Positions 10,211-29,222 of a stretch of DNA of 35,039 bases are shown piece by piece. Location: positions 1 through 35,039 of the IMG/VR virus record IMGVR_UViG_3300025913_000079, one strand, 5' to 3'. Position 1 is the stretch's first letter; the number at the start of each line of letters is the position of its first letter. This DNA is from a virus. The position numbers were made by a program, and so were the translations under genes. The notes beneath the pieces are model-generated. The model made no database searches. It saw only the letters and a program-made list of their open reading frames with translations, and was not told where the DNA came from.

Positions 10211-10558
10211 ATGAAAAACCCAAGAATGCCTAAGCCTGAGGCGTCTAAAATAGGCCACAACTCCATCCAAATCCCACACAACGGCAGGCTTGTCGACTCC
10301 GGCATCGCCTTCGAGTCCCGTCACGGTTATTACCGGATGATGGACGCCCGTCTTAACGCCCACAAGGAGATGGCTTGGCGTCTTGCGGCCCGTGAGAACG
10401 GTCGTCGCGAACGTATCCGCTATTGTAAGACAGGCCGCATCAAGCCGGTCGAGTACGTCGGGAAGGGTGTCTATTTTCAGGCACCGACCGTCCTTTATCG
10501 TAACCCCGACGCCAAGAATGGTTGGTCGACGTTTAATCCTGAGGAGGTAAGCTCTTGA
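10211..10558 (+). CDS. Unknown protein with N-terminal IGHNS motif
   Basis: 115 residues. The segment SKIGHNSIQIP near residue 12 matches a short N-terminal motif often seen in proteins of alphaproteobacterial phages. That is a recollection and hints at the host. The rest is basic (AARENGRRERIRYCKTGRI), with YVGKGVYFQAPTVLYRN near the end. GAGGGG ribosome site. Overlaps the next gene (TTGA). Confidence 0.65.
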   Translation: MKNPRMPKPEASKIGHNSIQIPHNGRLVDSGIAFESRHGYYRMMDARLNAHKEMAWRLAARENGRRERIRYCKTGRIKPVEYVGKGVYFQAPTVLYRNPDAKNGWSTFNPEEVSS

Positions 10559-10764
10559 AAAGACACAAGACAGGTCCCACGTGGTTCGGCAAGCGCCTTG
10601 AACAAGGCGAGGTTCGGACGGTCGCTACTGTCGTCGTTAAAAGCGATAGGCCGTGGTCGGCGGACGAAATTGAAGGCTGCCTGTGGGATGGCCATCACGG
10701 CAAAGAGGCAACCAAGACTGGCTTTCATGTGGAAGTCGACTCATCGTGGGGACCAACCAAATGA
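10555..10764 (+). CDS. Small protein of unknown function
   Basis: 69 residues, starting with TTG preceded by GAGGAGGT. Basic N-terminus (KRHKTGPTWFGKR), then VRTVATVVVKSDRPWSADEIEGCLWDG. No family recognised. Its stop overlaps the start of the cyclotransferase-like gene (ATGA), so it may be the first gene of that cassette or simply a neighbour. Confidence 0.6.
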   Translation: MKRHKTGPTWFGKRLEQGEVRTVATVVVKSDRPWSADEIEGCLWDGHHGKEATKTGFHVEVDSSWGPTK

Positions 10765-11141
10765 AGAAACACAAATTGTACGTCTATGGGACGTTGATGA
10801 CGGGTGAAGGTGAGCGGGTCAAAATCCCCGGTCTCCTCTATGATCTCGGCTGGTTTCCCGGCGCGAAGATCAGCACCCCCGAGTGCGGGCGCGAGTTCGT
10901 CGCTGAAATCCGTGAGGTGACGGACGGCGAGCTGAAGAGCATTGATCGGTACGAAGGATATTATGAGGACGCACCCGACGCGTCTCTCTACATCCGGAAG
11001 CCGTATCTCGACGGCTGGATTTATGAGTACAACCGGACGCCGTCGCCTGACCGGCTGATCGAGTCGGGAGACTGGCTTCAACACAAGTCGGACAAGAAGG
11101 CTGGGTGCGATCCCCGGTCGTTGCAGGAGGTTCAGGCATGA
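10761..11141 (+). CDS. Gamma-glutamylcyclotransferase-like (GGCT/AIG2 fold) protein
   Basis: 126 residues. It shows the substrate loop VYGTLMTGEG (residues 8-17) and the DRYEGYYED segment, where E65 is the expected catalytic Glu. YVYGTL at the N-terminus and a D-x-YEG motif about 50 residues later are the family signature. GGCT-type enzymes release gamma-glutamyl groups as 5-oxoproline, or from gamma-glutamyl-amine bonds. Short phage versions may act on an isopeptide. It sits upstream of the amidotransferase and ligase genes, which fits removal or trimming of a gamma-glutamyl group added by the cassette. Translation is coupled on both sides (ATGA overlaps). Confidence 0.85.
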   Translation: MKKHKLYVYGTLMTGEGERVKIPGLLYDLGWFPGAKISTPECGREFVAEIREVTDGELKSIDRYEGYYEDAPDASLYIRKPYLDGWIYEYNRTPSPDRLIESGDWLQHKSDKKAGCDPRSLQEVQA

Positions 11142-11392
11142 CCGAGTACAAATTCGAAGACGGTAAGGCCATAGAGGATTTGCGGCTGGCGGTTAACTCA
11201 GCCAACACCATCCTGATTCGGATACGAACGCTTGAGTCCGCCTTAGAGAAGGCTCGGTCTTCTATGCGGACTTTGGCAGACGGCATCTCTCCTAACGCAT
11301 ATAGGATGGCCTATAATCACGCTAAAGCAGAGAAGTATACCGACTTTGCGGCGAAGGCGGTCCAAGAGATCACGGAGGTACTCGGACGATGA
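11138..11392 (+). CDS. Small helical protein of unknown function
   Basis: 84 residues, nearly all helix. Heptad-like pattern LAVNSANTILIRIRTLESALEKARSSMRTL suggests a coiled coil, followed by a second helix (AYNHAKAEKYTDFAAKAVQEITEVL). GGAGG ribosome site. Overlaps both neighbours by 4 bases. Possibly a partner of the adjacent enzymes; no function can be named. Confidence 0.7.
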   Translation: MTEYKFEDGKAIEDLRLAVNSANTILIRIRTLESALEKARSSMRTLADGISPNAYRMAYNHAKAEKYTDFAAKAVQEITEVLGR

Positions 11393-11874
11393 GATTGGCA
11401 TTTCATGGCGGCATGTGCTGCGGGATTAAGACGATCTACGAGCTGGGTTTCCCGAACGATACCTCCCCTCCCCTTACGAAGAAAGACAAGGACAACTCCG
11501 ACGTCGGGTACAGCGCCGTCAAACCGACTCACAGCTTCTTCACGGACGCAGCCCCGAAGGAGACGAACCTCGAACGTCTCGATCGGTATATCGCGTTCTG
11601 CAAGACTAATCGACCTGCCCATATCATCGAGGTGGCATTGGCAGACCACCCTGCCAACAACTATAAGGCCGGCTCCGTGTCGTGCTATCCGTACCAGACT
11701 AAGCTATGGGGTCAGATACTGACCGACCGTGGTTTCAAAAAGGTAACGGAGTCGAAGAACAGCAATTCCGGCAACGTCGTCTCGATATGGCATCTGACGT
11801 ATGACCTGACGGCGACGGGCAAGAAGGAAGAGGCGGTGGCTTACGAGCCGGACGGCGTGGAGGAGGTGTCGTAA
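11389..11874 (+). CDS. Unknown protein with N-terminal GGMCCGI motif
   Basis: 161 residues. The start FHGGMCCGIKTIYELGF is distinctive, and the C-terminal half has LWGQILTDRGFKKVTESKNS, then GNVVSIWHL. The protein at 12422 has a comparable plan (GGYWGCCAVCIIQNF at the start, KWLEILKEEGFEFIRTTDNS later), so the two look like distant paralogues. The conserved adjacent Cys pair near the N-terminus could be catalytic or metal-binding. Located inside the amidotransferase-ligase cassette. Confidence 0.7.
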   Translation: MRLAFHGGMCCGIKTIYELGFPNDTSPPLTKKDKDNSDVGYSAVKPTHSFFTDAAPKETNLERLDRYIAFCKTNRPAHIIEVALADHPANNYKAGSVSCYPYQTKLWGQILTDRGFKKVTESKNSNSGNVVSIWHLTYDLTATGKKEEAVAYEPDGVEEVS

Positions 11875-12104
11875 TGGCTGCTGATACGGTTACTGCTTGG
11901 CCCATGTGCTCCGACGAAACCTTGGCGCGTCTTTATCGACAATATACGGATAATGCCGACGCCATCCGAAACGAGCTTATTTCTCGTGGCTTCCGTAAGG
12001 AAGTCAAGTACAGCGGTGTCTATTATACCGCGACAGCCATCGGTCCAGAGGATTGGAGGTGGGTCAAGCCGCCCGTCACCGTACCAGAAAAGGTGTTGAG
12101 ATGA
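11874..12104 (+). CDS. Small protein of unknown function
   Basis: 76 residues: helical ETLARLYRQYTDNADAIRNELISRGF, then GVYYTATAIGPEDWRWVKPP. Start overlaps the upstream stop (TAATG) with GGAGG 7 bases upstream. Stop overlaps the next gene (ATGA). No family recognised. Confidence 0.65.
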   Translation: MAADTVTAWPMCSDETLARLYRQYTDNADAIRNELISRGFRKEVKYSGVYYTATAIGPEDWRWVKPPVTVPEKVLR

Positions 12105-12226
12105 GCAGTCTCGTTCGTCGCATCCAGAAGAAAGGAGCGTGGGTAGGTATGCCTACCAAGCCTCAACCAAAGCGGGAAGGCCCGCCTCGTGGCCGTCGTC
12201 GCGGTAAACGAAAGGAGAAGTCGTGA
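12101..12226 (+). CDS. 41-residue highly basic peptide
   Basis: MSSLVRRIQKKGAWVGMPTK at the start, then a Pro/Gly/Arg/Lys-rich tail (REGPPRGRRRGKRKEKS). It overlaps both neighbours (ATGA upstream, TGATG downstream), as expected for a translated gene. It could bind RNA or DNA, or be a peptide substrate of the nearby ligases. Both are guesses. Confidence 0.5.
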   Translation: MSSLVRRIQKKGAWVGMPTKPQPKREGPPRGRRRGKRKEKS

Positions 12227-12363
12227 TGAAACGTAAGCCTGCCCCGAAGGGCTCGGAGCATATCCCGGACGTCGAAAGACGTGGCTATCTCTCCGGACGG
12301 ACGTCTCGCAAGGGCTTGACGTCTCACCACGCATCGGTCTGCCGTGGTGGAAATCTCCGTTAA
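12226..12363 (+). CDS. 45-residue basic peptide
   Basis: Sequence starts MKRKPAPKGSEHIPDVERRG and ends with ASVCRGGNLR, with one Cys. Upstream GGAGAAG gives a ribosome site, and it overlaps both neighbours by 1-2 bases (TGATG, TAATG). Part of a chain of three tiny coupled ORFs before the 12422 gene. Confidence 0.5.
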   Translation: MKRKPAPKGSEHIPDVERRGYLSGRTSRKGLTSHHASVCRGGNLR

Positions 12364-12419
12364 TGAAAGCTGAAAGGCTAAAAAAGGCGGCTACCATGCG
12401 TATTGTGAAGGAGAAGTAA
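12363..12419 (+). CDS. 18-residue coupled mini-ORF
   Basis: MKAERLKKAATMRIVKEK. It starts inside the previous stop (TAATG) and ends 2 bases before the next ATG. It may be a coupling ORF only, needed to carry ribosomes to the 12422 start, or a tiny peptide. Confidence 0.3.
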   Translation: MKAERLKKAATMRIVKEK

Positions 12420-12421
12420 GA

Positions 12422-13198
12422 ATGGAATTTCTTCGTTTTGGTTCGTCTATCCCCGGCGGGTATTGGGGATGCTGTGCAGTCTGCATCATTCAGAATTTCA
12501 AGGTCGATCCCGACCAGAAGGCAAGCATCCAGCTAGTCTCTGGTGACAGCGGGACTCCCGTCATGAAGGGGAGTGACTTCCTGTTCGTCGGTCCAACCTA
12601 TCGTGACATATTCAAGGAGCGTATCCGTATCGGTACGTTCTCCTCGACCGACATGCCAAACCACGCGTTTTTCGCCGTCCTGACGGAAAGCCAGATCGCG
12701 GGGGGCGTCGGCCGGAAGTGGCTCGAAATCCTCAAGGAAGAAGGCTTCGAGTTCATCCGGACGACTGACAACTCCGTCTATACCGGCCATCAACTGACAG
12801 GCCAGTCCAGCCCGCATCCGAACTATATTTTCGGGCTCTTCCGGAACATCAGCGGCAGTCGCATCAAGGACCCGTTCACGCCCCCTAAGGCGTGGACTGA
12901 CCTCAATCGTGTCGTGCCCGAGGCGTGGGAGGCTATGTCTCCGTCTGATCGTCTCGTCATGGCGGAGCAACAGACGGCCGTTCACACGCAGATGTGGAAA
13001 GACCACGGTGCGACGAAGTTTATGACCGAGGCGGAGCTTGTTGAGGCAGGTGCTCCCGTCATCTACGCAGGTTTACGGTCGAAATATCCCCCGCAGTCGA
13101 AAGACGCGAGGGAGAAGTTGATCGCTGCTGAGAAGGCGGTGAAGCCCGCCACCGCCTCGGCGTTCCCTGCCACGGTCGCTGTCTCGACAGCCGCCTAG
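12422..13198 (+). CDS. Unknown protein related to the 11389 gene product
   Basis: 258 residues. N-terminal FGSSIPGGYWGCCAVCIIQNF, a middle part with KWLEILKEEGFEFIRTTDNS and NYIFGLFRNI, then a helical C-terminal extension ending in Ala-rich low complexity. The first ~145 residues follow the plan of the 161-residue protein at 11389, and the C-terminal ~110 residues are extra. Adjacent Cys residues near the start are again present. AAGGAGA ribosome site. A gene-free spacer follows, so it may end a transcription segment. Function unknown. Confidence 0.7.
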   Translation: MEFLRFGSSIPGGYWGCCAVCIIQNFKVDPDQKASIQLVSGDSGTPVMKGSDFLFVGPTYRDIFKERIRIGTFSSTDMPNHAFFAVLTESQIAGGVGRKWLEILKEEGFEFIRTTDNSVYTGHQLTGQSSPHPNYIFGLFRNISGSRIKDPFTPPKAWTDLNRVVPEAWEAMSPSDRLVMAEQQTAVHTQMWKDHGATKFMTEAELVEAGAPVIYAGLRSKYPPQSKDAREKLIAAEKAVKPATASAFPATVAVSTAA

Positions 13199-13469
13199 GC
13201 AGGCTTGATGGCCACCACCGCACAAGGTCCTTTGAAGTGAACGAGTTCGACTCTCGACGCCTCTAGACCATATCATTGGTAATAACTGCGAGTGTCTGGC
13301 AACGCATCAGGCGTCGTCTAAGACTTAATGGGAGGCTGACAGCCTCTCTCCTGTATCAGCCGTCCGACCCGCACGTAGAACGTCTGAGGCTGCATCTACC
13401 AAGGTGCGGCCTCTCTCCGTAAAGCGTAGAGGTGGAGGCGAGTGGTGGCCATCAACTATAGAGGTTTCT
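13199..13469. other. Gene-free spacer with hairpins
   Basis: No gene. Hairpin GAGGCT/AGCCTC with a 3-nt loop near 13334-13348, and a stronger one GAGGCTGCA/TGCGGCCTC (13386-13413, one G-T pair, 10-nt loop). A tRNA T-arm look-alike at 13242-13256 has no matching acceptor or anticodon arm. The second hairpin is ~55 bp before the next start codon. Confidence 0.35.
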
Positions 13470-13679
13470 ATGCGAAATGATGAACAAAGATACCTCCTTG
13501 CCGAGGCTCTCATGTATTGGAAGTTCGGCTGGTACTTCGAGGCATATGACTGCCTTCGGGACGTTGCTAAATCAATTGATGCGCCGTTGGATGAGGTTTC
13601 TACCTCTAATCGGCGTCAACCCAAACGAAGAAAGGAGTTCACAGGTGACGCCAAGGCGCAACAACAACTTTATGAATGA
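13470..13679 (+). CDS. Small protein of unknown function
   Basis: 69 residues: helical YLLAEALMYWKFGWYFEAYD, then CLRDVAKSIDAPLDEVS and a basic tail. It reads like a small TPR-like helical hairpin. The ATG at 13470 follows GAGG. Its 3' end overlaps the amidotransferase gene start by 35 bp. Confidence 0.55.
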   Translation: MRNDEQRYLLAEALMYWKFGWYFEAYDCLRDVAKSIDAPLDEVSTSNRRQPKRRKEFTGDAKAQQQLYE

Positions 13680-14454
13680 GAGGAAGGTGACGGTCGTTCG
13701 AGATACAAATCTCGTCTTCCCGGAACTCTTCATGGAGGTATATGTCGAGGGAGACTCCTTAGAGCAGAAGGCGTTTGCCGAGATGTTCATCCGTGGTCGC
13801 TGCACGAAGGCTGACTCGCCCGAGGGAGCGGATCTCGTCGTATTTACAGGGGGTGTCGACGTCGATCCTCAGTTATATGGCGAGACGAAACATCCTGCGA
13901 CTTTGTTCAACGCTGAACGCGACAAGCGTGACATGGAGCTGTACAAGTATTGCTACGACAACGGCGTCCCGATGTTCGGTGTCTGTCGTGGTGCCCAGTT
14001 TCTCCACGTCATGAACGGCGGCAAGCTTTGGCAGGATATCGACAACCACGTCGGTGACCACGCGATTTATGACGTCAAGGCGAAGCGGACACTGCAGACG
14101 GTGTCGTCGGTCCATCATCAGGCGTGCATCTCCAACAAAGCTAACGGTATGGAGGTCATTGCTGTCTCTCATATCGCCCGCAATCGCTGGCAAAACGAGC
14201 GGATCAAGGTGCCGGGTCAGATGGAGGATATCGAGGCGTTCTGGTATCCAGACACGGTATGCTTCGGCGTCCAAGGCCATCCCGAGTATCGGGGGTATTA
14301 TCAGTACCTCCAATGGACACTCGAAAAACTCAAGGAATTGATGGTCGAGAATCCTTATCTCACCCTCCAAGGGAGGTGTCGTCGTCTCCGGCCTGACCTC
14401 ATCGCTGAGCGCGAGAAGATGAAGAAAGACGCGAGAGAGAAGGAGTTGAATTGA
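13645..14454 (+). CDS. Class I glutamine amidotransferase, peptidase C26 type
   Basis: 269 residues. Signature FTGGVDVDPQLYGE (residues ~67-80), nucleophile elbow FGVCRGAQFLHVMNGG with C114, SSVHHQA (~154-160) and the catalytic dyad partner GVQGHPEYR with H212 and E214. This pattern is that of gamma-glutamyl-GABA hydrolase PuuD and gamma-glutamyl hydrolases, which cleave gamma-glutamyl amide bonds. It could release ammonia from glutamine or hydrolyse a gamma-glutamyl product. I chose GTG at 13645 (AAGGAG, 7 bases upstream) rather than a Met 9 codons later without a ribosome site. Upstream in-frame codons read through the previous gene in another frame and are not likely coding. Member of the ligase cassette. 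Confidence 0.9.
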   Translation: MTPRRNNNFMNERKVTVVRDTNLVFPELFMEVYVEGDSLEQKAFAEMFIRGRCTKADSPEGADLVVFTGGVDVDPQLYGETKHPATLFNAERDKRDMELYKYCYDNGVPMFGVCRGAQFLHVMNGGKLWQDIDNHVGDHAIYDVKAKRTLQTVSSVHHQACISNKANGMEVIAVSHIARNRWQNERIKVPGQMEDIEAFWYPDTVCFGVQGHPEYRGYYQYLQWTLEKLKELMVENPYLTLQGRCRRLRPDLIAEREKMKKDAREKELN

Positions 14455-14666
14455 TGGGCTACCAAGAGTTCAAAGAGACTGAGTGTTTAGTACGCGAAGG
14501 TTGTGGACTCGCCCCTCCTCGTAAGTTCGACTCGTATACCGAGGCTTATCGTTACGCAGTTAAAACCTCCAAAGAGCCTCATTATCTAGGAGGTACAACG
14601 CCTGTCCAACTAGTGGTGCGAGAAATACGTAGTACCGTCCGGACGTTCAAAAACGGAGAGTTTTGA
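14454..14666 (+). CDS. Small protein of unknown function
   Basis: 70 residues: ECLVREGCGLAPPRKFDSYT, then EAYRYAVKTSKEP, then VQLVVREIRSTVRTF. Alternating beta/alpha pattern. Overlaps the amidotransferase stop (TGATG) and the next start (TGATG). Unrecognised; coupled to cassette genes. Confidence 0.6.
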   Translation: MGYQEFKETECLVREGCGLAPPRKFDSYTEAYRYAVKTSKEPHYLGGTTPVQLVVREIRSTVRTFKNGEF

Positions 14667-14866
14667 TGTATCACGTAACCTTCCGAGGAGGGAAGATTCA
14701 TCCTCCGTCGTTTAACACGGATCGTTGGACTAGGGACGAGATCGTCGAAAAAATTCGATCTTCGATAGGCACGAAGTTACCAGACGGACACGTCGTCACA
14801 ATCGATGATTACGGAGTCTTCGAGCTGGTGCCTCGTAAAATCTCGATGAAGGTGGAGCTAAGCTGA
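14666..14866 (+). CDS. Small protein of unknown function
   Basis: 66 residues: YHVTFRGGKIHPPSF, then RDEIVEKIRSSIGTKLPDGH, then VVTIDDYGVFELVPRK. A beta-alpha-beta-beta pattern is likely. Start and stop overlap neighbours by 1-4 bases. Confidence 0.6.
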   Translation: MYHVTFRGGKIHPPSFNTDRWTRDEIVEKIRSSIGTKLPDGHVVTIDDYGVFELVPRKISMKVELS

Positions 14867-15057
14867 TGCCTATCGTTTATTTCGTCGTCTTTCTGTTCTA
14901 TGTCTTTTGTCTTGTCCATGTCCTGAAGTTCGGTCTGGACCTTACACAAGACAACGACGACAAATGGTATGGTGGTGTGGCGATGTGGTTCGTCTGGTGT
15001 ATTGGTTGGTTATTTGGGCCGCCTCTCGTGCTGGTCTATATTTGCGGAGTTTTGTGA
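14866..15057 (+). CDS. Small two-span membrane protein
   Basis: 63 residues, with hydrophobic segments at ~2-24 (PIVYFVVFLFYVFCLVHVL) and ~38-62 (VAMWFVWCIGWLFGPPLVLV) joined by a polar loop (DLTQDNDDKW). It lies directly before the class II amidotransferase gene (stop and next ATG abut). A membrane protein inside the cassette could tether the ligases or export the product. That is inference. Confidence 0.65.
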   Translation: MPIVYFVVFLFYVFCLVHVLKFGLDLTQDNDDKWYGGVAMWFVWCIGWLFGPPLVLVYICGVL

Positions 15058-16236
15058 ATGTGTGGTCACGTCGGTATCGCGGGTAAGCTCGAAAACAAAG
15101 ACGAGCAGACAATGAAGCGATTGCTTCTCTTCGATTATTTCCGAGGTCCGGACAGCACCGGCTTCGCAGCCCTTCGGTCAACCCCGAAAGGTGAGGCGCA
15201 TCTCTGCAAGATTGCAAGCAACCCTCTCGATCTGTTTGACATGAAGAAGTTCGGCACGGCGCTCAATGCCTTCAACAGCACCGTCTTCCTCGGTCATAAC
15301 CGTCTCGCGACGAAGGGTGTCGTCAACAACTATAACGCCCATCCCTATCTCTTCGAGAAGGAGGGTGGAGTGATTGTCGGTGCCCATAACGGGACGCTCG
15401 ACAAGTCGTCTTGGGATGCCATCGAAGACAAGCTCGGTGAGAAGTTTCCGGTCGACAGCATGGCGGTCGTCGCTGCGATTGCAAAGCTTGGCATCGAAGC
15501 CACCGTCCCGCTTCTCCAAGGCGCATGGGCGCTTGTCTGGTTCGACACGTCGGACAACACCCTGAACTTCCTCCGAAACAAGGAGCGTCCGTTCTGGTAT
15601 GCCTATACCGAGAACTTCGATCATATGATCTGGGCGAGTGAGTTTCCGACGATCCGGGCTGCCCTCGACTTGTCTGCCAATCCGTACAAGCTGTACAAGA
15701 CGGCAGAAGGGTATTCCTACTTCGCGACGAAGGAGGATTGGTGGTATAAGATCGATCTCGATAAGCTCAAGGCGGGTGCGACTGAGCGTCCTAAACCACG
15801 TGTCAAGGAGTTGAAGGGAAAGGAGCCGGCCCCGGCGCAGAACTATGCCTGCGGAGGGTACACCCCTTTCAAGAGACAAACACAGGGGATGTCACAAACG
15901 AGTTCGACGACGACATCCCATGGGGCTGGTTCGGGGGTGGGTACATCTACCAGTAACGTCACCGTCCTGCCCGGCCTACCCGGCCCGAAGAAGGACGTCA
16001 CAATCCCCGTCCTGCATCTGACTACGACGGGTGCTCAGCCGTTTGCTGAGTTCTTGACTGAGGAGGAATTCAAAGCGATATCCAAGTATGGGTGTTCGTG
16101 GTGTCAGGCGGATGTCTCATATGACGAGCCGGGTGTCCAAGTCTATGTCAATCATGACATGATTCTCTGTCCGTCTTGTGCGGATGAGAATGAGACAAAC
16201 AGGGTGTACGTCGATGCCTCCCGTCTTGTATGTTAA
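15058..16236 (+). CDS. Class II (Ntn) glutamine amidotransferase with C-terminal zinc-ribbon-like tail
   Basis: 392 residues. MCGHVGIAG gives the N-terminal Cys nucleophile (C2 after Met removal). Other conserved elements are GHNRLATKG (79-87, glutamine-binding R82), GAHNGTL (108-114, oxyanion-hole N and G) and PVDSMAV (131-137). The family frees ammonia from glutamine and passes it to a partner synthetase. No sugar-isomerase or asparagine-synthetase domain follows, so the acceptor enzyme must be separate, and the two adjacent amidoligases are obvious candidates. Residues ~265-330 are Gly/Ser/Thr/Pro-rich linker. The end has CSWC and CPSC pairs about 17 residues apart, a likely zinc ribbon that may dock a partner or substrate. 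Followed 52 bases later by the COOH-NH2 ligase. Confidence 0.9.
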   Translation: MCGHVGIAGKLENKDEQTMKRLLLFDYFRGPDSTGFAALRSTPKGEAHLCKIASNPLDLFDMKKFGTALNAFNSTVFLGHNRLATKGVVNNYNAHPYLFEKEGGVIVGAHNGTLDKSSWDAIEDKLGEKFPVDSMAVVAAIAKLGIEATVPLLQGAWALVWFDTSDNTLNFLRNKERPFWYAYTENFDHMIWASEFPTIRAALDLSANPYKLYKTAEGYSYFATKEDWWYKIDLDKLKAGATERPKPRVKELKGKEPAPAQNYACGGYTPFKRQTQGMSQTSSTTTSHGAGSGVGTSTSNVTVLPGLPGPKKDVTIPVLHLTTTGAQPFAEFLTEEEFKAISKYGCSWCQADVSYDEPGVQVYVNHDMILCPSCADENETNRVYVDASRLVC

Positions 16237-16288
16237 TAATACTACCCGATATGTAAACGGAAGATACTATTACTTAAGGAGTTCTGAA

Positions 16289-17125
16289 ATGCAGGTTGCC
16301 AAGCCCGCGATTGACGGGTTTAAGTTCGGGTGTGACCCCGAGTTGTTTGTCCTCGATGCGGACGGCGAGCCCGTCTCAGCCGAGGGTCTTATCCCCGGAA
16401 CGAAAGAGGAGCCGTACAAGGTCGAGCATGGTGCAGTCCAAGTCGACGGGATGGCTGCCGAGTTCAACATCGACCCGGCGAGTTCTTTCGAGGAGTTCAA
16501 CGGAAACATCGTCGCCGTCCTGAAGCAGTTGAAAGGCATGCTTCCGACCGGGTATAAACTCCGAGCCGTACCATCCATGGTCTTCTCCGAGAAGATATGG
16601 GACGCCACCCCTGACATCGCAAAGGCCCTTGGCTGCACGCCGGACTATGACGCATGGACTGGCGAGGTCAACCCTCCTCCGGAGGATCTCGTCAACCCAC
16701 GGATGAGGTGTGCAGGCGGCCATATCCACATCGGCTGGACGGAAGGCGAGGAGTTGTCGGATATCCAGCATATCATGAACTGTCGCGATCTCATCCGACA
16801 GCTCGACTGGTATCTCGGTGGTTGGTCGGTCCGTGTCGACCCAGATCCTACCCGTCGTCGTTTGTACGGAAGAGCAGGAGCCTGCCGATATAAGCCGTAT
16901 GGCGTCGAGTACAGGGTCCTTTCGAACTTCTGGGTAGCCGAGAAGGAGGCTCGCCTAACCGTCTGGAATCGCCTCCAGGCCGCGATTGAGGGCATGCGTA
17001 AGGAGTTCTATCCTGACCTGGCAAGGAAAGATACCCAGCTCTTGATTGAACGGATCAACAACTCAGAGAGGGACGGACTGTTCGAGCGGAAGTTCCATTT
17101 CCCGCTCATTTCCGTCAATAAATAG
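16289..17125 (+). CDS. COOH-NH2 ligase (amidoligase), phiEco32-like type 2
   Basis: 278 residues of the glutamine-synthetase-like fold. Motifs: FGCDPELFVLDADG (13-26; E18), QVDGMAAEFNIDP (51-63; E58), GGHIHIGW (143-150; H145, H147) and GVEYRVLSNFW (205-215; E207, R209). These Glu, His and Arg residues are the expected metal- and ATP-binding set. The family is predicted to join a carboxylate to an amine using ATP, via an acyl phosphate. The phage form is named after phiEco32. I took ATG 16289 (AAGGAG upstream); the reading frame before it overlaps the amidotransferase gene. With the class II amidotransferase next door, ammonia is a plausible amine donor, so it could amidate a carboxylate. Confidence 0.88.
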   Translation: MQVAKPAIDGFKFGCDPELFVLDADGEPVSAEGLIPGTKEEPYKVEHGAVQVDGMAAEFNIDPASSFEEFNGNIVAVLKQLKGMLPTGYKLRAVPSMVFSEKIWDATPDIAKALGCTPDYDAWTGEVNPPPEDLVNPRMRCAGGHIHIGWTEGEELSDIQHIMNCRDLIRQLDWYLGGWSVRVDPDPTRRRLYGRAGACRYKPYGVEYRVLSNFWVAEKEARLTVWNRLQAAIEGMRKEFYPDLARKDTQLLIERINNSERDGLFERKFHFPLISVNK

Positions 17126-17133
17126 GAGCTTGT

Positions 17134-17901
17134 ATGGCTGCCGTTTCGAAGGAATATACGAACTTCTACGAGAACATAAAAGAAGCCATGATGCGGCTTC
17201 AACATACCGTCGTGATGTATGACGGCTTTCCTTACTATGTCCTGACGATCGATTCGCACAAGCCGGACGGTATCTTCCGTGTCTATATGGAACCACTAGG
17301 AGCCAAGCGAGGGTCTGTCATCGGCCGTGGTCTGTCGGTGCCTTATGACGGCCCTGACGGCTATCGTGGTCCTGAGATGGATAAATGGCTGGATGCGAAC
17401 AAAGACTCAGGCGTCATCCGGAAGCAGATGAACTCGCCTCTCTTCAATAAGTTCCGTCCGTTCGATCTCGGTATGTGCAACATCGACGGTAACGTCGTCT
17501 ATACCGAGCGTCAGCCCCAGCGTCAGACCTACCAAGGTTTGACACAACAGATGGTCTATCAGTTGCCTGTCTCATTGGGGCCAAGACTGTCTGTCACTAA
17601 GAATGCGCTGGTCGGGATACAGCACCCGGCATTCAAGGCGTGTGTCCTAGCGGAGCATCCGTCCTACGACGAGTGTATCAAGAACCTACTAGACCCGGAG
17701 ATTTCGAATGAAGGTGTCGCTTTTAGCCGCCATTTCGCCTTGGTTAGGGGTCCTGTTGATACTCTGTTTCTCGCCTACAAGTCCGATATTGTCGGCGCTG
17801 TCACGGATGGTTCGAAGACTCTTCGGCTCTCCAAGAGCCATCGTCATACGAGAGAGGTTATCGAAGAGTTGGGTGTCTTTTCGGAAATCAAAATCGCATA
17901 A
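17134..17901 (+). CDS. Unknown protein between the two amidoligases
   Basis: 255 residues, mixed alpha/beta, no membrane segment. Notable segments are YYVLTIDSHKPDGIFRVYME, IRKQMNSPLFNKFRPFDLGM (~residues 95-115) and AFKACVLAEHPSYDECIKNLL. No catalytic motif is recognised. AGGAG ribosome site; 8 bases after the first amidoligase and 10 before the second, so it is almost certainly part of the same unit and may be a substrate-binding or structural component. The PLFNKFRPF segment would be a good search seed. Confidence 0.75.
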   Translation: MAAVSKEYTNFYENIKEAMMRLQHTVVMYDGFPYYVLTIDSHKPDGIFRVYMEPLGAKRGSVIGRGLSVPYDGPDGYRGPEMDKWLDANKDSGVIRKQMNSPLFNKFRPFDLGMCNIDGNVVYTERQPQRQTYQGLTQQMVYQLPVSLGPRLSVTKNALVGIQHPAFKACVLAEHPSYDECIKNLLDPEISNEGVAFSRHFALVRGPVDTLFLAYKSDIVGAVTDGSKTLRLSKSHRHTREVIEELGVFSEIKIA

Positions 17902-17911
17902 GGAGAAAGAA

Positions 17912-19081
17912 GTGGATACCGTTTTTGTTGCTCGACGTAACAGCAAGACACCCGGCTTCAACATCGCGTCTATCTTTGATAAGAAGATGGTGACTGGCGA
18001 AGTCGGGTTGGAGATCGAAGTCGAGGGTAATAAGTTTCCGAAGAATGAAACGATCGGGAGCGCCATCCCGCTTCCTTGGGTCTATCACAAAGACGGCAGC
18101 CTTCGTGGGCAGGACAACGCCGAGTATGTACTCAAGGCGCCGATTAAGTTTGACGCCGTTCCTGACGCGATCAAGATCCTGTGGGACCTGTTCGCGGCGT
18201 ATGGAAGCAAGCTCGACGTCAGCAACAGGACGTCGGTCCATGTCCATTTGAACGCCCAGAAGTTCCACCTCAATAGGCTGGCGGCGTTCCTCGGTATGTA
18301 CTTCTCCGTCGAGGAGATGCTCACGGAGTGGTGCGGCGACCATAGGGTTGGCAATCTATTCTGTCTCCGAGCGAAGGACGCGACGGCCATTGTGACTCAT
18401 TTGAAGAAATTCATTCAGGCGGATGGTTCGTATGAGCTTAGGGAGGGTCTGCACTATGCCGGGTTGAACGCCCACGCGCTCTATAAGTTCGGCTCGATCG
18501 AGATCCGGTCGTTGCGGGGATGCACCGAACCCCAAACCATACTTGACTGGGTTGCTATCCTCCGCCGTATCTATGAGAAGTCGGCAGACTTTCCCGATCC
18601 TCGTCTGATCCCTGACAGCCTGTCATCTGACGGACCGATGGCATATTTGGACATGGTGCTCGGAGAGCATCGCTCGACGGTGATTAACGGGATCGGATGG
18701 ACGATCGATAAGGTACGGGGCAGCTTGTATGAAGGCATCAGGCTTGCTCAAGACATCTGCTATTGCAGGGACTGGTCGTTGTACTCTCCGGTGGAGATGA
18801 AGTCCGACCCTTTTGGTAGGCCCGCCAAGAAGGTGGCATCGAGTCTTTCTCATCTGGCACAAGCTCTGGTGCAGAACCAAGCCTCATTCAATATGGCCAA
18901 CCAAATAGGTGACCAAATCTATCAGGTCAATATAAGCACGCCCCCCCCTCCGACCCCTGTTGGGTGGTCTCTCCCCCATGAGACGATAGACGGTGAACAG
19001 GTCTGGGTTAATGAAGAGGTCCCGGAGATGGAGGAAGGGGACGAGGCAGAGGACATGGACGGGGACGAGCAAGCGGAGTGA
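17912..19081 (+). CDS. Amidoligase_2-type ligase, second glutamine-synthetase-fold enzyme
   Basis: 389 residues. Motifs of the putative amidoligase family: GEVGLEIEVEG (29-39; E34, E36), YHKDGSLRGQDNAEYVLKAP (58-77; D61, E71), TSVHVHLNA (107-115; H110, H112) and GSIEIRSLRG (194-203; E197, R199). It probably ligates an amine to a Glu or peptide carboxylate with ATP. The last ~60 residues are Pro-rich, then highly acidic (EEGDEAEDMDGDEQAE), an unusual tail that could recruit a basic partner or substrate. I chose GTG 17912 (AAGGAGA upstream). An ATG 68 codons earlier lies in the overlapping frame of the previous gene and gives a hydrophobic, unrelated extension. Confidence 0.85.
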   Translation: MDTVFVARRNSKTPGFNIASIFDKKMVTGEVGLEIEVEGNKFPKNETIGSAIPLPWVYHKDGSLRGQDNAEYVLKAPIKFDAVPDAIKILWDLFAAYGSKLDVSNRTSVHVHLNAQKFHLNRLAAFLGMYFSVEEMLTEWCGDHRVGNLFCLRAKDATAIVTHLKKFIQADGSYELREGLHYAGLNAHALYKFGSIEIRSLRGCTEPQTILDWVAILRRIYEKSADFPDPRLIPDSLSSDGPMAYLDMVLGEHRSTVINGIGWTIDKVRGSLYEGIRLAQDICYCRDWSLYSPVEMKSDPFGRPAKKVASSLSHLAQALVQNQASFNMANQIGDQIYQVNISTPPPPTPVGWSLPHETIDGEQVWVNEEVPEMEEGDEAEDMDGDEQAE

Positions 19082-19103
19082 TCTGCGACCACAAGGAGTA
19101 CTT

Positions 19104-19880
19104 ATGAGATTTCGTGTACTACCATACAAACAAGGAAGTAAGAGTGCGAAGGCTCTCGCCGATGCGCTGGGAGGTAAGGTCCTCAAGCTTGAGGGCAGCA
19201 AGTACCAATATAAAGATGGAGACGTCTTGATTAATTGGGGCAATACCAAAGAGGCAGCAGACTTAGATGACGGTCTATTGCCGTGGTTTAACTTCCCCGA
19301 GGCAATTAAGCCGGCTTCCAATAAACTGTTGTTCTTCAACAAGTTAAAAGAAGTCAAGCCTGAAATTATCCCTAAGTTCTGGACGAAGAAGGAGGATATT
19401 CCTGATGCTGCCTTTCCAATCGTTTGTCGTACTGTCCTTGCTGGTCATAGCGGTGCTGGCATCGTTATCGCTGATAATCGTAATGCGCTGGTAGACGCAC
19501 CGCTCTACGTCCAGTACAAGAAGAAGAAGGATGAATATCGTGTCCATGTCGGACGAAAGCAGAGTGGCGACGGCGCTGGAGAGAGCGTGGTCATCGCGGT
19601 TCAGCGAAAAGCCAGACGTAACGGTGCGGAGACTGTCAACTGGCAAGTACGTAATCTCGCTGGAGGTTTCGTCTTTGTGCGGGGTGGCGTTTCTCCTCCA
19701 GCATCTGTCACATCCTCTGCCGTGGAAGCTCTGGCAGCGTCTGGCCTCGACTTCGGGGCCGTCGACGTAATCTATAACGAACACGAAGGGAAAGCGTATG
19801 TCCTCGAAATCAACACAGCCCCCGGCCTCGAAGGCCAAACCATCGCCGATTATGCAAGCTTCTTTAAGGAGATGGGTTGA
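19104..19880 (+). CDS. ATP-grasp ligase
   Basis: 258 residues, short for the fold. N-terminal pre-ATP domain (LPYKQGSKSAKALADALGG, VLINWGNT), then the glycine-rich nucleotide loop VLAGHSGAGIVI (111-122), EYRVHV (144-149), FGAVDVIYN (218-225; D221) and the metal-binding VLEINTAPGLEG (233-244; E235, N237). This is the RimK-like / peptide-ligase type, which activates a carboxylate as acyl phosphate and couples it to an amine. The fourth bond-making or amide-handling enzyme type in the cassette. AAGGAG before ATG. A small ORF begins inside its 3' end. Confidence 0.88.
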   Translation: MRFRVLPYKQGSKSAKALADALGGKVLKLEGSKYQYKDGDVLINWGNTKEAADLDDGLLPWFNFPEAIKPASNKLLFFNKLKEVKPEIIPKFWTKKEDIPDAAFPIVCRTVLAGHSGAGIVIADNRNALVDAPLYVQYKKKKDEYRVHVGRKQSGDGAGESVVIAVQRKARRNGAETVNWQVRNLAGGFVFVRGGVSPPASVTSSAVEALAASGLDFGAVDVIYNEHEGKAYVLEINTAPGLEGQTIADYASFFKEMG

Positions 19881-20069: not shown

Positions 20070-20098
20070 TTGACAAACGGGACAGGATAGGGTATAAT
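20070..20098 (+). promoter_or_regulatory. Rightward consensus sigma-70 promoter of the replication block
   Basis: TTGACA (20070-20075), 17-bp spacer, TATAAT (20093-20098): perfect consensus. Then CGGTGTATAGGGT, matching the bases after the -10 at 25404 and at the leftward promoter. The leader to the first ATG (20247) is ~140 nt and rich in pyrimidine tracts (near 20127-20150 and 20200-20220). Confidence 0.9.
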
Positions 20099-20246: not shown

Positions 20247-20480
20247 ATGAAGTGTCATATCTGTGACCGGGACTTATCAGACAAAGAAACTATCTACAAC
20301 GAGGACCTCCAAGCCTACGAGCCTTGTACCACCTGTCTCGATATAGCTCTCGATGCCGCCTATTGCAACGGCTTCTCGATTGAGCATGACGAAATCCCCA
20401 CCCTCGATGCAGACTTCGATACCCGTGTCGAGTATACGGAGTTTCCTCTGTCTGGCGGATTGTATGAGCCGTATGAGTAA
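20247..20480 (+). CDS. Small zinc-ribbon-like acidic protein
   Basis: 77 residues. MKCHICDRDL and CTTCLDIALDAAYC give two CxxC pairs, probably one zinc site. The rest is acidic (HDEIPTLDADFDTRVEYTEF). AAGGTG ribosome site. First gene after the 20070 promoter. Confidence 0.65.
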   Translation: MKCHICDRDLSDKETIYNEDLQAYEPCTTCLDIALDAAYCNGFSIEHDEIPTLDADFDTRVEYTEFPLSGGLYEPYE

Positions 20481-21549: not shown

Positions 21550-21683
21550 ACGCCGTCCTGAAATATATGTGCCTATGCAAGCATTGGTCGGTCACGTGGG
21601 CGGATCACGTCCAACACATGAGAAAATGTAGAACCTGTAAAAGGTCGATGAAGGAGATGGATGAGCAAATTCGTCCGACATGA
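21546..21683 (+). CDS. 45-residue zinc-finger-like peptide
   Basis: MNAVLKYMCLCKHWSVTWAD, then HVQHMRKCRTCKRSMKEMDE. It has CxC, two His and CxxC spaced like a small zinc finger. It ends 23 bases inside the helicase gene. Too short for most gene callers, but it has neat overlaps on both sides. Confidence 0.5.
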   Translation: MNAVLKYMCLCKHWSVTWADHVQHMRKCRTCKRSMKEMDEQIRPT

Positions 21684-23298
21684 CAGCTGTCCGAAGTGTG
21701 GAAGCGAAGACAATCTCGCCGTCTATGACGACCACGAGTACTGCTTCTCGCAAGGCTGCGATTACCGAAAGAACTATAACAAGAAAGGTAACCGAGAAAT
21801 CACCGAAGAAAGAAAAGAAAGTCGACTGACGCCTCTCCCCCTCAAGACAATGCCTGCCTTGAAGAGCCGAGGATTGGATACGGCTTCGATCAATAAGTAC
21901 AAGATTACGGTCAACACCAACCCCGACAGCGACATCGAGTGTGTCTTCCCTCTCTTCGACTGTGAAGGCGAGGGTATGCACATAGCAAACCAGGTACGGC
22001 GAGCCGGTAAAGCTTTCCACACCGAGGGCGATATGTCTCGGGCGGGGTTGTTTGGTCAGAACTTCTTCCCGGCGGGAGGAAAGTCGATCACAGTGACGGA
22101 AGGGTATTATGATGCTGCTTCAGCATTTCAGCTCACCGGCTCGCGCTACCCGAATGTGGGTGTTATGTCTGCCGCTTCCGCGAAGAAAGAGATTGTCCGT
22201 AACTTTGAATATATCGACTCGTTCGAGAAAGTTGTTCTTAACTTTGATAGTGATGATCCTGGACAGAAAGCCGCTAAGGAAGTCGCGCAACTCTTCGCGC
22301 CCGGTAAGGTCACGATCCTCAAGCTTGAGAAGGCAAAGGATGCCAACGACTACCTGAAGAGCGGATGGGCGAAGGAGTATATCAATGAATGGTTTCGCAG
22401 CCCTCCGTACATGCCTGACGGCATCCAGCTTGGCTCTGACCCGGCCCTCATCGAAGAGATTATCAAGTATAAAGAACCCCGCTCCGTACCATATCCGTGG
22501 GATGGCCTCAACCAAAAGACCTACGGAATACGAACTTCTGAATTGGTTCTACTCACGGCTGACACGGGAGTTGGAAAGACCTCTGTTTGCAAAGAGATTG
22601 AATATTCCCTCCTAACCCATCCTGATTTGGTTGCTGAGGGCGCGGGTGTTGGCTTCCTCCATCTCGAAGAACCGAAGCGAGACCTCGCTCTAGGGTTGAT
22701 GTCTGTCCACAACAACAAGCCATACCACTTCCCGGACGTCGAAAGGACAGAAGAGGAGCTACGAGATGCTTATAAAGCAGTCCTTGACACTGACCGTGTC
22801 GTCATATGGGATCATTTTGGTTCTAATGATATCGATGTTGTTCTGGCCAAAATACGCCATATGGCCGCTCTTGGTTGTCGGTACATCTTTCTGGATCACC
22901 TTTCCATTATTGTTAGCGATCAGTCTGGCGATGAACGGAAGCAGTTAGACGAGATTAGTACGAAGATCAAGACACTGACGATGAATTTAGACATCGCAGT
23001 AGTGTGTGTCATTCATATCAATCGTCAAGGTCAGGTCCGTGGTTCTGCCGGTCCCGAGCAGGTGGCGAATATCATTCTTCGTCTCGAACGTGACAAGAAA
23101 GAGTTGAACGAATGGCGACGGAACATCACTAAGATCACCGTCGAGAAGAACCGGAAATTCGGTCGGACAGGCCCGGCCTGTTATTTATACTACAACGAGG
23201 TGACAGGACGACTAGAAGAGTTGTCGAAGGAGCTGGCGTACGAGTATGAGAACGGAAGCACCGGAGCCGGACATGAGTTCGGTGCATACGCCGCATAG
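21661..23298 (+). CDS. T7 gp4-like DNA primase-helicase
   Basis: 545 residues (T7 gp4 is 566). Zinc-binding primase domain C10, C13, C28, C33 (DSCPKCGS ... CFSQGCDY), TOPRIM core VTEGYYDAAS (145-154; E147) and NFDSDDPG (194-201; D196, D198). The DnaB-type helicase has Walker A ADTGVGKTS (300-308), catalytic LHLEE (E336), Walker B YIFLDHLS (408-415), VCVIHINRQG (H3-like) and a finger region NRKFGRTGP (497-505). It unwinds DNA and makes primers for the lagging strand, working with the adjacent polymerase and the SSB-like protein. AAGGAG before the ATG. Zinc and primase elements are intact, so it should be bifunctional. Confidence 0.95.
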   Translation: MSKFVRHDSCPKCGSEDNLAVYDDHEYCFSQGCDYRKNYNKKGNREITEERKESRLTPLPLKTMPALKSRGLDTASINKYKITVNTNPDSDIECVFPLFDCEGEGMHIANQVRRAGKAFHTEGDMSRAGLFGQNFFPAGGKSITVTEGYYDAASAFQLTGSRYPNVGVMSAASAKKEIVRNFEYIDSFEKVVLNFDSDDPGQKAAKEVAQLFAPGKVTILKLEKAKDANDYLKSGWAKEYINEWFRSPPYMPDGIQLGSDPALIEEIIKYKEPRSVPYPWDGLNQKTYGIRTSELVLLTADTGVGKTSVCKEIEYSLLTHPDLVAEGAGVGFLHLEEPKRDLALGLMSVHNNKPYHFPDVERTEEELRDAYKAVLDTDRVVIWDHFGSNDIDVVLAKIRHMAALGCRYIFLDHLSIIVSDQSGDERKQLDEISTKIKTLTMNLDIAVVCVIHINRQGQVRGSAGPEQVANIILRLERDKKELNEWRRNITKITVEKNRKFGRTGPACYLYYNEVTGRLEELSKELAYEYENGSTGAGHEFGAYAA

Positions 23299-23307
23299 GA
23301 GAAATGA

Positions 23308-25128
23308 TTGTATCTTGATTGGCACAACCTCAATAGAGATGCCTACGTAATTGACATAGAGACTGACGGCTTAGACGCGACCCGAATATGGGTTCTATGC
23401 TGGCGAAACGTCAAGACAGGAGAGACAGGTGAATGTAAAAGCATATCTGAGATCAAAAGCTTCTTCGATCAAACGAGTGGCGGACTGTATGTTGGCCACA
23501 ACATTCTTAAGTTCGATGCTCCAACTCTGGTGCATCTCGTGGACGGGGTCAGCCTCGGTGCTGCTAATTGTATTGACACTCTCGTCCTTAGCACTCTTTA
23601 CTCTCCTAGCTTGCCTGGCGGTCATAGCCTTCAATCTTGGGGTGGACGGCTAGGTAAACCTAAGATAGAGTTCGATGACTGGTCGCGCCTGACACCCGAG
23701 ATGGTAGAGTATTGCCATCAAGACGTCGCAATCACTGCCGAACTCTTCGTCAGGCTTATCAAGACGCTGAGGAAGATTGGCTTCTCGGAGAAATCGGTCT
23801 GGATACAACACCACTTCACTGTTCTTCTAGACAGGCAGCATAGGAATGGATTTTATTTTGATGGTCATAGGGCACTGGGATTACTTACGTCTCTGCGTTC
23901 TAGGCAAGCTGAGCTGGAGGAACTGATCCATGTCGCTTTCCCACCGCAACTTGAGGAACTCGCCCACTACAAGCTCGCTCGTAAAAAGAATGGCGAATAC
24001 AGCAGCCAATATCTCCGACACCGTCAGTTGTATGAACTCGTCGAGATTGATCCCGACGGATCGTATCGCGTTTTTGGACGAACTCCTTTCAACATTGGTT
24101 CTCCTAAACAACGAGTTGAGAAACTCAAATCGTTAGGATGGGTCTGCAAAGAGTTCACCGAGAAGGGTGGTGAGACTCCCTTCATAAAAGGGAAGCTCGC
24201 CCCTTCATTAGAGAAGTTCTTAGAGACGCACGACATACCAGAGGTCCATCTCATTGCGAAATGGATGTCGATAGGTGGTCGTGCCAACATGATCGGGACA
24301 TGGTTAGATGCTTGGAACGAAGAAGACTCCTGTATACATGGTAAGCTGTTTGTTGCAGACACCCTTAGGCTTCGACATCAATCTCCTAACACAGCCAACA
24401 TCCCCGCCGTACGGACAGCTAAAGGGGGCGGCGTCCTGCGTGGCGAAGAAGGATATTACACGTATGAAGCTCGTGATTTATGGTGTGCTAGACCTGGACG
24501 AATGCTTGTCGGTACTGATGCGGCAGGTCTTGAGCTACGAATGCTTGCTCATTACCTTAACCGCCCAGATTTCACAGAGCAGGTAGTCAATGGTGATCCC
24601 CATCAGTACAACGCCGATCTTGTTGGTATTACCCGGCCACAAGCCAAGACGCTTATCTATGCCGTGTTATATGGGGCAGCCCCACCTAAGGTTGCAAAGA
24701 CACTCGATATCTCAGTCGGAGAGGCTGCGAATATTAGGACGTTGTTTCTCGAACGTCTGGGTGTCGGAACTCTCATAAATGAGTGTCAGAAGGAGCAGAG
24801 AAATGGAAGAGTCACACTCGTCGACGGCAGTAAGGTGGTATGTCCGAGTCCACACGCTGCACTCAATTATCGACTCCAAGGCGGAGGAGCAAGGGTCATG
24901 GCTCTCGGTGCTATCCTTCTTGAGAGAAGCCTGCGCAAATATGCCCTCGACAGTCTTAAGGTTGGAGATATTCATGACGAGTGGCAATATGACGTCCACC
25001 CTGAACATGCCGATCCACACGGCGAACTCGCTGTCCAAGCTATTAGAGAGGCTGGGAAGAAGCTTGCCCTTAATGTACCGCTCGATGGCGAGTCTAAGAA
25101 AGGACTGACATGGGCGGAGACCCACTAG
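23308..25128 (+). CDS. Family A DNA polymerase (T7 gp5-like)
   Basis: 606 residues. 3'-5' exonuclease motifs VIDIETDG (D16, E18), VGHNILKFD (D70) and YCHQD (Y135, D139) are intact, so proofreading is expected. Polymerase motif A GTDAAGLELRM (D404), motif B RPQAKTLIYAVLYG (R443, K447, Y451, Y455) and motif C IHDEWQYDV (H556, D557, E558). Tyr at the T7 Y526 position predicts poor discrimination against dideoxynucleotides. The usual Gly after that Tyr is Ala (IYA rather than IYG). A T7-type thioredoxin-binding loop cannot be confirmed. Start is TTG with AGGAG 6 bases upstream; no good ATG exists nearby. Follows the helicase gene by 9 bases. Confidence 0.95.
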   Translation: MYLDWHNLNRDAYVIDIETDGLDATRIWVLCWRNVKTGETGECKSISEIKSFFDQTSGGLYVGHNILKFDAPTLVHLVDGVSLGAANCIDTLVLSTLYSPSLPGGHSLQSWGGRLGKPKIEFDDWSRLTPEMVEYCHQDVAITAELFVRLIKTLRKIGFSEKSVWIQHHFTVLLDRQHRNGFYFDGHRALGLLTSLRSRQAELEELIHVAFPPQLEELAHYKLARKKNGEYSSQYLRHRQLYELVEIDPDGSYRVFGRTPFNIGSPKQRVEKLKSLGWVCKEFTEKGGETPFIKGKLAPSLEKFLETHDIPEVHLIAKWMSIGGRANMIGTWLDAWNEEDSCIHGKLFVADTLRLRHQSPNTANIPAVRTAKGGGVLRGEEGYYTYEARDLWCARPGRMLVGTDAAGLELRMLAHYLNRPDFTEQVVNGDPHQYNADLVGITRPQAKTLIYAVLYGAAPPKVAKTLDISVGEAANIRTLFLERLGVGTLINECQKEQRNGRVTLVDGSKVVCPSPHAALNYRLQGGGARVMALGAILLERSLRKYALDSLKVGDIHDEWQYDVHPEHADPHGELAVQAIREAGKKLALNVPLDGESKKGLTWAETH

Positions 25129-28625: not shown

Positions 28626-28777
28626 TGGAAGACGTTTACGACTTGCTTGCACGAGACCTGATGAATAACGTCGATCTCGATTACGGTATGGCGCTTCTAG
28701 TCGTGGAGTTCCTGCAAGACAACGACTTCATCGATTATGACACCCTAAAGGAAATCTATCTGTATGGCGAAGACTGA
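28625..28777 (+). CDS. 50-residue acidic protein of unknown function
   Basis: MEDVYDLLARDLMNNVDLDY, then GMALLVVEFLQDNDFIDYDT. Mostly helical and acidic. Start overlaps the exonuclease stop; the end overlaps the diphosphohydrolase by 14 bases. Confidence 0.55.
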   Translation: MEDVYDLLARDLMNNVDLDYGMALLVVEFLQDNDFIDYDTLKEIYLYGED

Positions 28778-29222
28778 GTCAACATTCGCTGGTATTCCTG
28801 TCAGCGACCTTCCTGTCATGGATGTCTACAAAGCTGCTGCTACAGGACAATGGAGTGTAAAATTGAGTAAAGCCGTTGAGGAATACACTAATGACAAGGC
28901 GGAAGACGTCGCGAAGGGTGCCATCAAATATGACGGTGGAAAGGCTCCAGTATTTAGGGGCGCAATCGATTACTTCCCTCGGGCAATTAGCGCAGTTGCC
29001 TCGGTCTCCCTTTTCGGAGCTAATAAATATGCTTGGAAAGGATGGGAGCGAGTTCCAGACGGATACAATCGATACTCTGACGCAATGGTACGACACCTTA
29101 TCTACGAAGGAGAAGGAGAAGTTCTGGACCCTGATAGTGGACTTCTTCATGCTGCACACGCCGCATGGAACGCCCTCGCGCGTCTTGAACTCCTCCTCAA
29201 AGAGCGAGAGTCTCAGGTTTGA
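28764..29222 (+). CDS. dATP/dGTP diphosphohydrolase-like protein (MazZ-like domain)
   Basis: 152 residues. The segment GAIKYDGGKAPVFRGAID (~52-69), SLFGANKYAWKGWERVPDG (~82-100) and YSDAMVRHLIYEGEGEVLDP with LLHAAHAAWNALARLELLL matches the phage dATP/dGTP diphosphohydrolase N-terminal family. Members include MazZ of 2-aminoadenine (Z) phages, which converts dGTP to dGMP for dZ synthesis. The family also occurs in phages without Z. Here it lies in a nucleotide-pool block with ribonucleotide reductase and a MazG-like enzyme. No adenylosuccinate-synthetase-like PurZ is in the window. Confidence 0.8.
   Translation: MAKTESTFAGIPVSDLPVMDVYKAAATGQWSVKLSKAVEEYTNDKAEDVAKGAIKYDGGKAPVFRGAIDYFPRAISAVASVSLFGANKYAWKGWERVPDGYNRYSDAMVRHLIYEGEGEVLDPDSGLLHAAHAAWNALARLELLLKERESQV

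Follow-up and report, generated by a model that had tools for sequence, protein, structure and literature searches.

What would a phage do with six amide-bond enzymes encoded side by side, and on what would they act? The question is raised by positions 10761-19880 of IMG/VR virus record IMGVR_UViG_3300025913_000079, analysed here over its entire 35,039 bases (the window), where a single same-strand run encodes a gamma-glutamyl cyclotransferase (GGCT)-like protein, a C26 hydrolase, a class II glutamine amidotransferase (GATase-II), a COOH-NH2 ligase, an Amidoligase_2 enzyme and an ATP-grasp ligase, together with three more conserved genes. This cassette is a real unit whose co-occurrence is not due to chance. 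In our favoured reading, to which we give a probability of about 45%, its enzymes form a single amide-ligation pathway of the phiEco32 type, acting most likely on a protein or peptide that is available early in infection. The cassette genes are as follows.

10761..11141, plus strand: GGCT-like gamma-glutamyl(amine) cyclotransferase, accessory, position variable among phages (Pfam PF06094, E = 2e-10; YG-L motif, E65)
11389..11874, plus strand: conserved protein without assigned function, 'GGxCCGIK' type, paralogue of 12422-13198 (homologues in the window's clade; alignment)
12422..13198, plus strand: conserved protein without assigned function, paralogue of 11389-11874 (homologues; AlphaFold model)
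13672..14454, plus strand: C26 / class I GATase-like hydrolase (PF07722, 3e-24; phrog_7218, 2e-36; C105/H203/E205)
15058..16236, plus strand: class II (Ntn) glutamine amidotransferase with C-terminal CxxC...CxxC, core (PF13522, 5e-16; phrog_4736, 1e-60)
16289..17125, plus strand: phiEco32-type COOH-NH2 ligase of the glutamine synthetase (GS)-like family, core (PF14395, 1e-7; phrog_3815, 2e-79)
17134..17901, plus strand: X, near-universal partner beside Amidoligase_2, core (hidden Markov model (HMM) match in 172 of 178 loci; AlphaFold model)
17912..19081, plus strand: Amidoligase_2 ligase of the GS-like family, core (PF12224, 4e-5; phrog_7469, 9e-55; conserved residues)
19104..19880, plus strand: RimK-like ATP-grasp ligase, core (phrog_2599, 6e-72; D222/E236/N238)

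The original prediction, made from the sequence alone, recognised six amide-bond enzymes with intact catalytic residues in this region and passed over X and the 11389-11874/12422-13198 pair, which are conserved genes within the same stretch. Pfam and PHROG profile searches supported all six, the ATP-grasp protein being clear in PHROG and just below the Pfam cut-off for RimK (PF08443, 20.2 versus 21 bits). Positions that are the same in at least 90% of homologues (81-196 per protein, numbered from the start used in the alignment) are kept in the window's proteins, including those that we take to be catalytic from knowledge of the families. These comprise Y9-G10-L12 and E65 in GGCT (at least 94% of 81 homologues), C105, H203 and E205 in C26 (99% of homologues), and R82, N111-G112 and D133 in GATase-II, whose C2 nucleophile was read off the sequence. 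The COOH-NH2 ligase, which has 31 invariant columns over 22 sequences, keeps E19, Q52, D54, E59, H146, H148, R201, K203, E208 and R210, and the Amidoligase keeps E32/E34/E36, E69, H108, H110, R143, E195 and R197 (184 homologues). The ATP-grasp protein keeps K75, E145, R147, K170, D222, E236 and N238, the last three being kept in 96% of homologues. The C-terminal extensions of GATase-II vary widely, with proteins of 510-846 residues in loci L023, L024, L028, L031 and L032 and 392 in the window, and many of the long C-termini carry CxxC...CxxC motifs. Several cassette genes abut or overlap and purine-rich sequence lies upstream of most starts, a spacing and start context that appear operon-like; likely starts include 13672 (not 13477) for C26, 16289 for the COOH-NH2 ligase, a GTG at 17912 for the Amidoligase and 19104 for the ATP-grasp protein.

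Relatives were gathered with the COOH-NH2 ligase as query, and an iterative HMM survey of the resulting 178 loci detected Amidoligase_2 in 171, GATase-II in 170, ATP-grasp in 168, C26 in 156 and GGCT in 68. Contig ends account for most of the missing genes: where flanking sequence was sufficient, GATase-II, Amidoligase and ATP-grasp were each absent from one of 131-160 loci, C26 from 5 of 115 and X from 5 of 170. As a control, two arbitrary DNA words were used to draw 193 random viral contigs (1.61 Mb); these yielded one Amidoligase match and none for the COOH-NH2 ligase, GATase-II, X, C26 or ATP-grasp. The commonest order, C26-GATase-II-COOH-NH2 ligase-X-Amidoligase-ATP-grasp-primase-polymerase, occurs in 67 loci and, with GGCT in front, in 41 more. 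The linkage assumed by the original prediction was therefore borne out: the genes stand together in the 178 loci and in more than 300 named records, the opposite of the scattering in related phages that would have counted against it. Pairwise distances of GATase-II, the COOH-NH2 ligase, X and the Amidoligase also correlate (r 0.54-0.73, each value reached by 0 of 200 permutations).

By tblastn, the COOH-NH2 ligase, ATP-grasp and GATase-II were found in 317, 309 and 312 phage records, respectively, with nearly identical host-group breakdowns, and annotated genomes with the set include phiEco32, LUZ24, CW02, PA11, CVT22, 7-11, LAh_9 and Privateer, among others. A search of approximately 85,000 prokaryote genomes with the COOH-NH2 ligase returned just 12 loci. 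Every one came from a metagenome-assembled genome, and several lie on contigs about as long as a phage genome; the family therefore looks restricted to phages. The combination that the original prediction called notable is not unusual. The cassette type is not new, being present in more than 300 phage records (phiEco32, LUZ24, PA11, CW02 and 7-11 groups) and common to LUZ24-like, phiEco32-like, Zobellviridae and Grimontviridae phages, and the UFV-P2 paper of 2014 already listed COOH-NH2_lig, Amidoligase, GATase, ATP-grasp and AIG2/GGCT genes (PMC3890496). The earlier interpretation is thus partly supported: plausible, and not new. A unit kept in hundreds of phages, including many Pseudomonas, Escherichia coli and Klebsiella isolates, must have an important function.

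Two things are new here, X as a near-universal cassette component and the shared C-terminal tails described further on. The gene of X lies between the two GS-like ligases, its HMM matches 10 of 11 named phages in addition to the loci above, and the LUZ24 gene at the same position shares a PHROG (phrog_4877) with that of phiEco32. X remains beside the Amidoligase in three loci with rearranged order, and the X-Amidoligase distance correlation is the highest among the pairs (r = 0.73). Single-protein scans with X gave no matches, and X has no Pfam family and no significant PDB sequence relative; the family is tied together only by iterative HMM, gene position and fold. Its AlphaFold model is confident (predicted local distance difference test (pLDDT) 91.7, predicted TM-score 0.87). 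A fold search against PDB gave no significant match (best E = 0.12), and the significant matches in BFVD were to phage proteins only, including a Vp_R1 protein and CW02 gp8 (E = 1.7e-12, TM 0.80 by target length). By these searches, X is a phage-specific family, and we infer that it acts as an adaptor. The 23-kDa 'gp86' in a published table of Kuravirus SU10 proteins was considered as X and not counted, since GenBank gp86 is the Amidoligase and the X-position gene is gp87.

With this enzyme set, glutamine could be hydrolysed, carboxylates ligated in three ATP-dependent reactions, and gamma-glutamyl or amide bonds cleaved in two ways. We propose the following reactions and their order from the protein families, conserved residues, gene order and co-conservation, and from the production of cassette proteins by SU10. 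GATase-II would hydrolyse glutamine to ammonia (and glutamate), and the two GS-like ligases would activate a carboxylate with ATP before joining it to ammonia or an amine. The RimK-like ATP-grasp enzyme would add amino acids onto an acceptor, C26, plus GGCT where present, would trim or remove gamma-glutamyl groups, and X, beside Amidoligase_2, would serve as an adaptor or substrate-binding subunit. RimK-type ATP-grasp enzymes modify proteins or peptides, and both they and GS-like ligases act on protein or amino-acid carboxylates. Because of this precedent, and because X is partner-like without an enzyme family and no small-molecule tailoring enzyme was seen, the substrate may well be a protein or peptide, either a host protein or a small phage protein. 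Expression during infection is documented in SU10, where mass spectrometry of a polyethylene glycol-concentrated lysate, not purified on CsCl, detected ATP-grasp (six peptides), GATase-II (nine) and GGCT (two), all listed as early products (PMC4281155). Given this preparation, infected cells produced these proteins, which are not necessarily components of the virion.

Several observations weigh against a single pathway of this kind. Neither GGCT nor C26 is obligatory, given the counts above, and ATP-grasp distances correlate weakly with those of the other proteins (r 0.18-0.30), although some loci may have a different ATP-grasp as their best match. Distances of the cassette proteins also correlate with those of the primase/helicase (r 0.46-0.54), so the correlations reflect common phage ancestry besides linkage. 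No biochemistry for any cassette member was found in the literature, and no substrate is pinpointed in the window, whose open reading frames (ORFs) lack the shared C-terminal tails described below.

An alternative substrate is the cell envelope, with the ligases amidating or extending peptidoglycan stem peptides or a surface polymer and thereby blocking a second phage. The idea has a pedigree, as PMC10580990 attributes to Iyer et al. (2009) a cell-wall modification against superinfection for phiEco32. The named carriers infect many Gram-negative host groups, whose surfaces nevertheless differ greatly, and envelope data for phage or bacterium were not found. No Mur-ligase-like or transport gene was recognised in the cassette by Pfam and PHROG scans, and the absence of a Mur ligase domain from the cassette proteins (Pfam) also sets them apart from MurT/GatD peptidoglycan amidation, which pairs such a domain with a class I GATase. 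We consider envelope modification rather unlikely. PADLOC models matched none of the nine cassette proteins to known anti-phage defence systems.

A small-molecule pathway, in which gamma-glutamyl protection serves to make or detoxify an amine or dipeptide metabolite, is suggested by PuuA/PuuD, a GS-like ligase with a C26 enzyme, and BtrJ/BtrG, an ATP-grasp with a GGCT, likenesses that we treat as leads. Both pairings are present in the window, and nicotinate phosphoribosyltransferase and phosphoribosyl pyrophosphate synthetase genes lie near the cassette in LAh_9 (Aeromonas; L031:9696-12834) and Slicky01 (Pseudoalteromonas; L033:13630-15911). However, neither GGCT nor C26 is obligatory, no oxidase or dehydrogenase was found among the proteins scanned, and neither an amine oxidase nor any further enzyme for small-molecule tailoring turned up in the examined cassettes. 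A near-universal X without a recognised enzyme family also suits a macromolecular substrate better, and this account is therefore an unlikely one.

A more specific version of a protein substrate arises from an unusual feature of some cassette phages, in which several to 19 small proteins per phage, mostly of 60-120 residues and interspersed among the cassette genes, end in one phage-specific C-terminal tail. The tails are LENE in CVT22 (19 proteins), LENK in Klyazma (12), LEND in Pecta (16), LEEN[VILAK] in CW02 (9) and GDT[ED][ED]DI in RHph_N3_13 (15), while environmental contigs have EEDIWL, LEDWM/L, FKGN, ENE, VERLV and KEDWL. The arrays lie in the following loci.

L149 (CVT22), L426 (Klyazma), L427 (Pecta), L150 (CW02) and L029 (RHph_N3_13): tail-array loci
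L073, L345-L348, L389, L392, L394, L400 and L102: further tail-array loci

One explanation, that the tails are simply ribosome-binding sites for the next gene, is partly true: the tails overlap sequences resembling Shine-Dalgarno sites, and there is a strong preference for GAG, a codon that also serves as part of such a site. Most tail positions nonetheless use two to five synonymous codons, swaps are conservative (K/R, D/E, W/Y), a few tails have no adjacent start after them, and the large enzymes in between, such as those of the CVT22 and CW02 cassettes, are untailed; for these reasons protein-level constraint is the better, if unproven, reading of the sequences. Some tail proteins are clearly related to each other (e.g. 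KOW-like), and gene duplication therefore accounts for some of the sharing. Tail arrays were found in 14 of 178 cassette loci versus 0 of 193 random contigs (Fisher p = 2.6e-5; p ~0.002 by bases searched), where the controls are unmatched contigs of all phage types and related phages are counted separately. Matches in L070 (nested or overlapping ORFs) and in random contig L228 (dissimilar ORFs) were set aside by eye. As relatives are not independent, controls are unmatched and only two cassette-free podophages of similar type (SIO1 and CRP-13) were scanned, the association with the cassette is a lead. A shorter Amidoligase accompanies the tails (median 272 versus 335 residues, phage relatedness not removed). 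A literature search on shared tails, a weak test, gave no match. Outside the Klyazma cassette, orf027 (L426:374-853) carries the unchecked annotation 'putative proteasome beta subunit'.

These arrays raise the possibility that the phage uses its cassette to tag proteins; in one version, X and the ligases would read the tail of many otherwise unlike small early proteins and attach something to it or join it to targets. The last tail letter differs among related phages (E in CVT22, K in Klyazma, D in Pecta), with the copies changing together, as expected if a phage-specific reader co-evolves. PafA/Dop, the Pup ligase system, offers a likeness as a lead, with a GS-related carboxylate-amine ligase beside glutamine chemistry. 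In the window, neither a Pup-like protein nor a proteasome gene was observed, and among the main ORFs read there was no Pup-like C-terminal GGE/GGQ and no shared-tail family. Since the window and the phiEco32, LUZ24, PA11 and VPp1 stretches have no tails, the tails cannot be the sole substrate, and untailed phages would have to carry a different recognition feature; we regard tagging as quite improbable. X and, as a lead only, the tail arrays raise the interest of the locus, turning the 2009 prediction into specific testable questions about possible substrates and partners.

Attachment of amino acids or amines to a modified DNA base is very improbable: the cassette directly precedes replication genes and amino-acid-bearing phage bases exist, but the scanned window proteins include no base hydroxylase, thymidylate-synthase-like hydroxymethylase or 7-deazaguanine gene, and HaeIII cut the DNA of the carrier phage tf, which was also sequenced (PMC3517423). 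That the genes are unrelated accessories sharing the early region by chance, as the differing positions of ATP-grasp and GGCT among phages might hint, is scarcely credible given near-perfect co-occurrence, in mostly fixed order, over 178 loci and several phage families.

Within and around the cassette, the 11389/12422 paralogues are confined to the window's clade (44 loci, matches shared between both). The AlphaFold model of 12422-13198 is fairly confident (pLDDT 88.8) and shows a weak, partial GNAT-like fold resemblance (probability 0.98, but E = 0.018 and TMq 0.20). Small ORFs were considered as substrate peptides and rejected: across approximately 120 related loci, those at 11138, 11874, 13470, 14451, 14663 and 14866 had no homologues and that at 10211 had one. 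Three features lie downstream.

20070..20098, plus strand: sigma-70 promoter-like site, consensus 12/12 (motif match)
20247..20480, plus strand: small acidic-tailed protein with CxxC...CxxC, usually encoded next downstream of ATP-grasp (59 homologues)
21661..25128, plus strand: primase/helicase and DNA polymerase A, after the cassette in most relatives (Pfam; gene order)

The first, a perfect TTGACA-N17-TATAAT between the cassette and the replication genes, is in a region where such sites are no more numerous than in shuffled sequence. The 20247-20480 protein has a very acidic C-terminal part, and its homologues were counted in the searched loci, the window included. Despite being a frequent neighbour it is not supported as a LysW-like carrier, as its C-terminus is not conserved, and its link to the cassette is uncertain. 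Elsewhere in the window, Pfam-type scans identified both terminase subunits (large and small) and a P22-like portal on the minus strand; the plus strand carries primase/helicase, DNA polymerase A, nucleases and a ribonucleotide reductase of the B12-dependent type. A dATP/dGTP diphosphohydrolase N-terminal domain (PF18909) at 28764-29222, near a DUF4406 protein, may mark nucleotide-pool genes. The window is probably an incomplete genome, as the ORFs at its two ends are cut off and contigs related to it frequently measure 47-52 kb. A 23,670-base contig of another record (L111) encodes the same terminase as the window, with 100% identity over 470 residues.

Compared with known systems, the window combines three ligases, GATase-II and X, in contrast to the enzyme pairs PuuA/PuuD and BtrJ/BtrG. 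It shares with the phiEco32/LUZ24 module the same core enzymes, with the PF14395 ligase, Amidoligase_2, GATase-II and RimK-like ATP-grasp side by side in the early region, and the same gene separating the pair of GS-like ligases, ahead of primase/helicase. It differs in having C26, GATase-II upstream of the ligases, GGCT far upstream and a longer X (255 versus ~190-205 residues). The Zobellviridae (PA11, CW02, CVT22, Klyazma and Pecta) have the order C26-GATase-II-COOH-NH2 ligase-X-Amidoligase-ATP-grasp-primase, as in the window, which has no tail-sharing small proteins, carries the extra paralogous pair 11389/12422 and encodes a longer Amidoligase (389 residues versus 266-268 in CW02 and CVT22).

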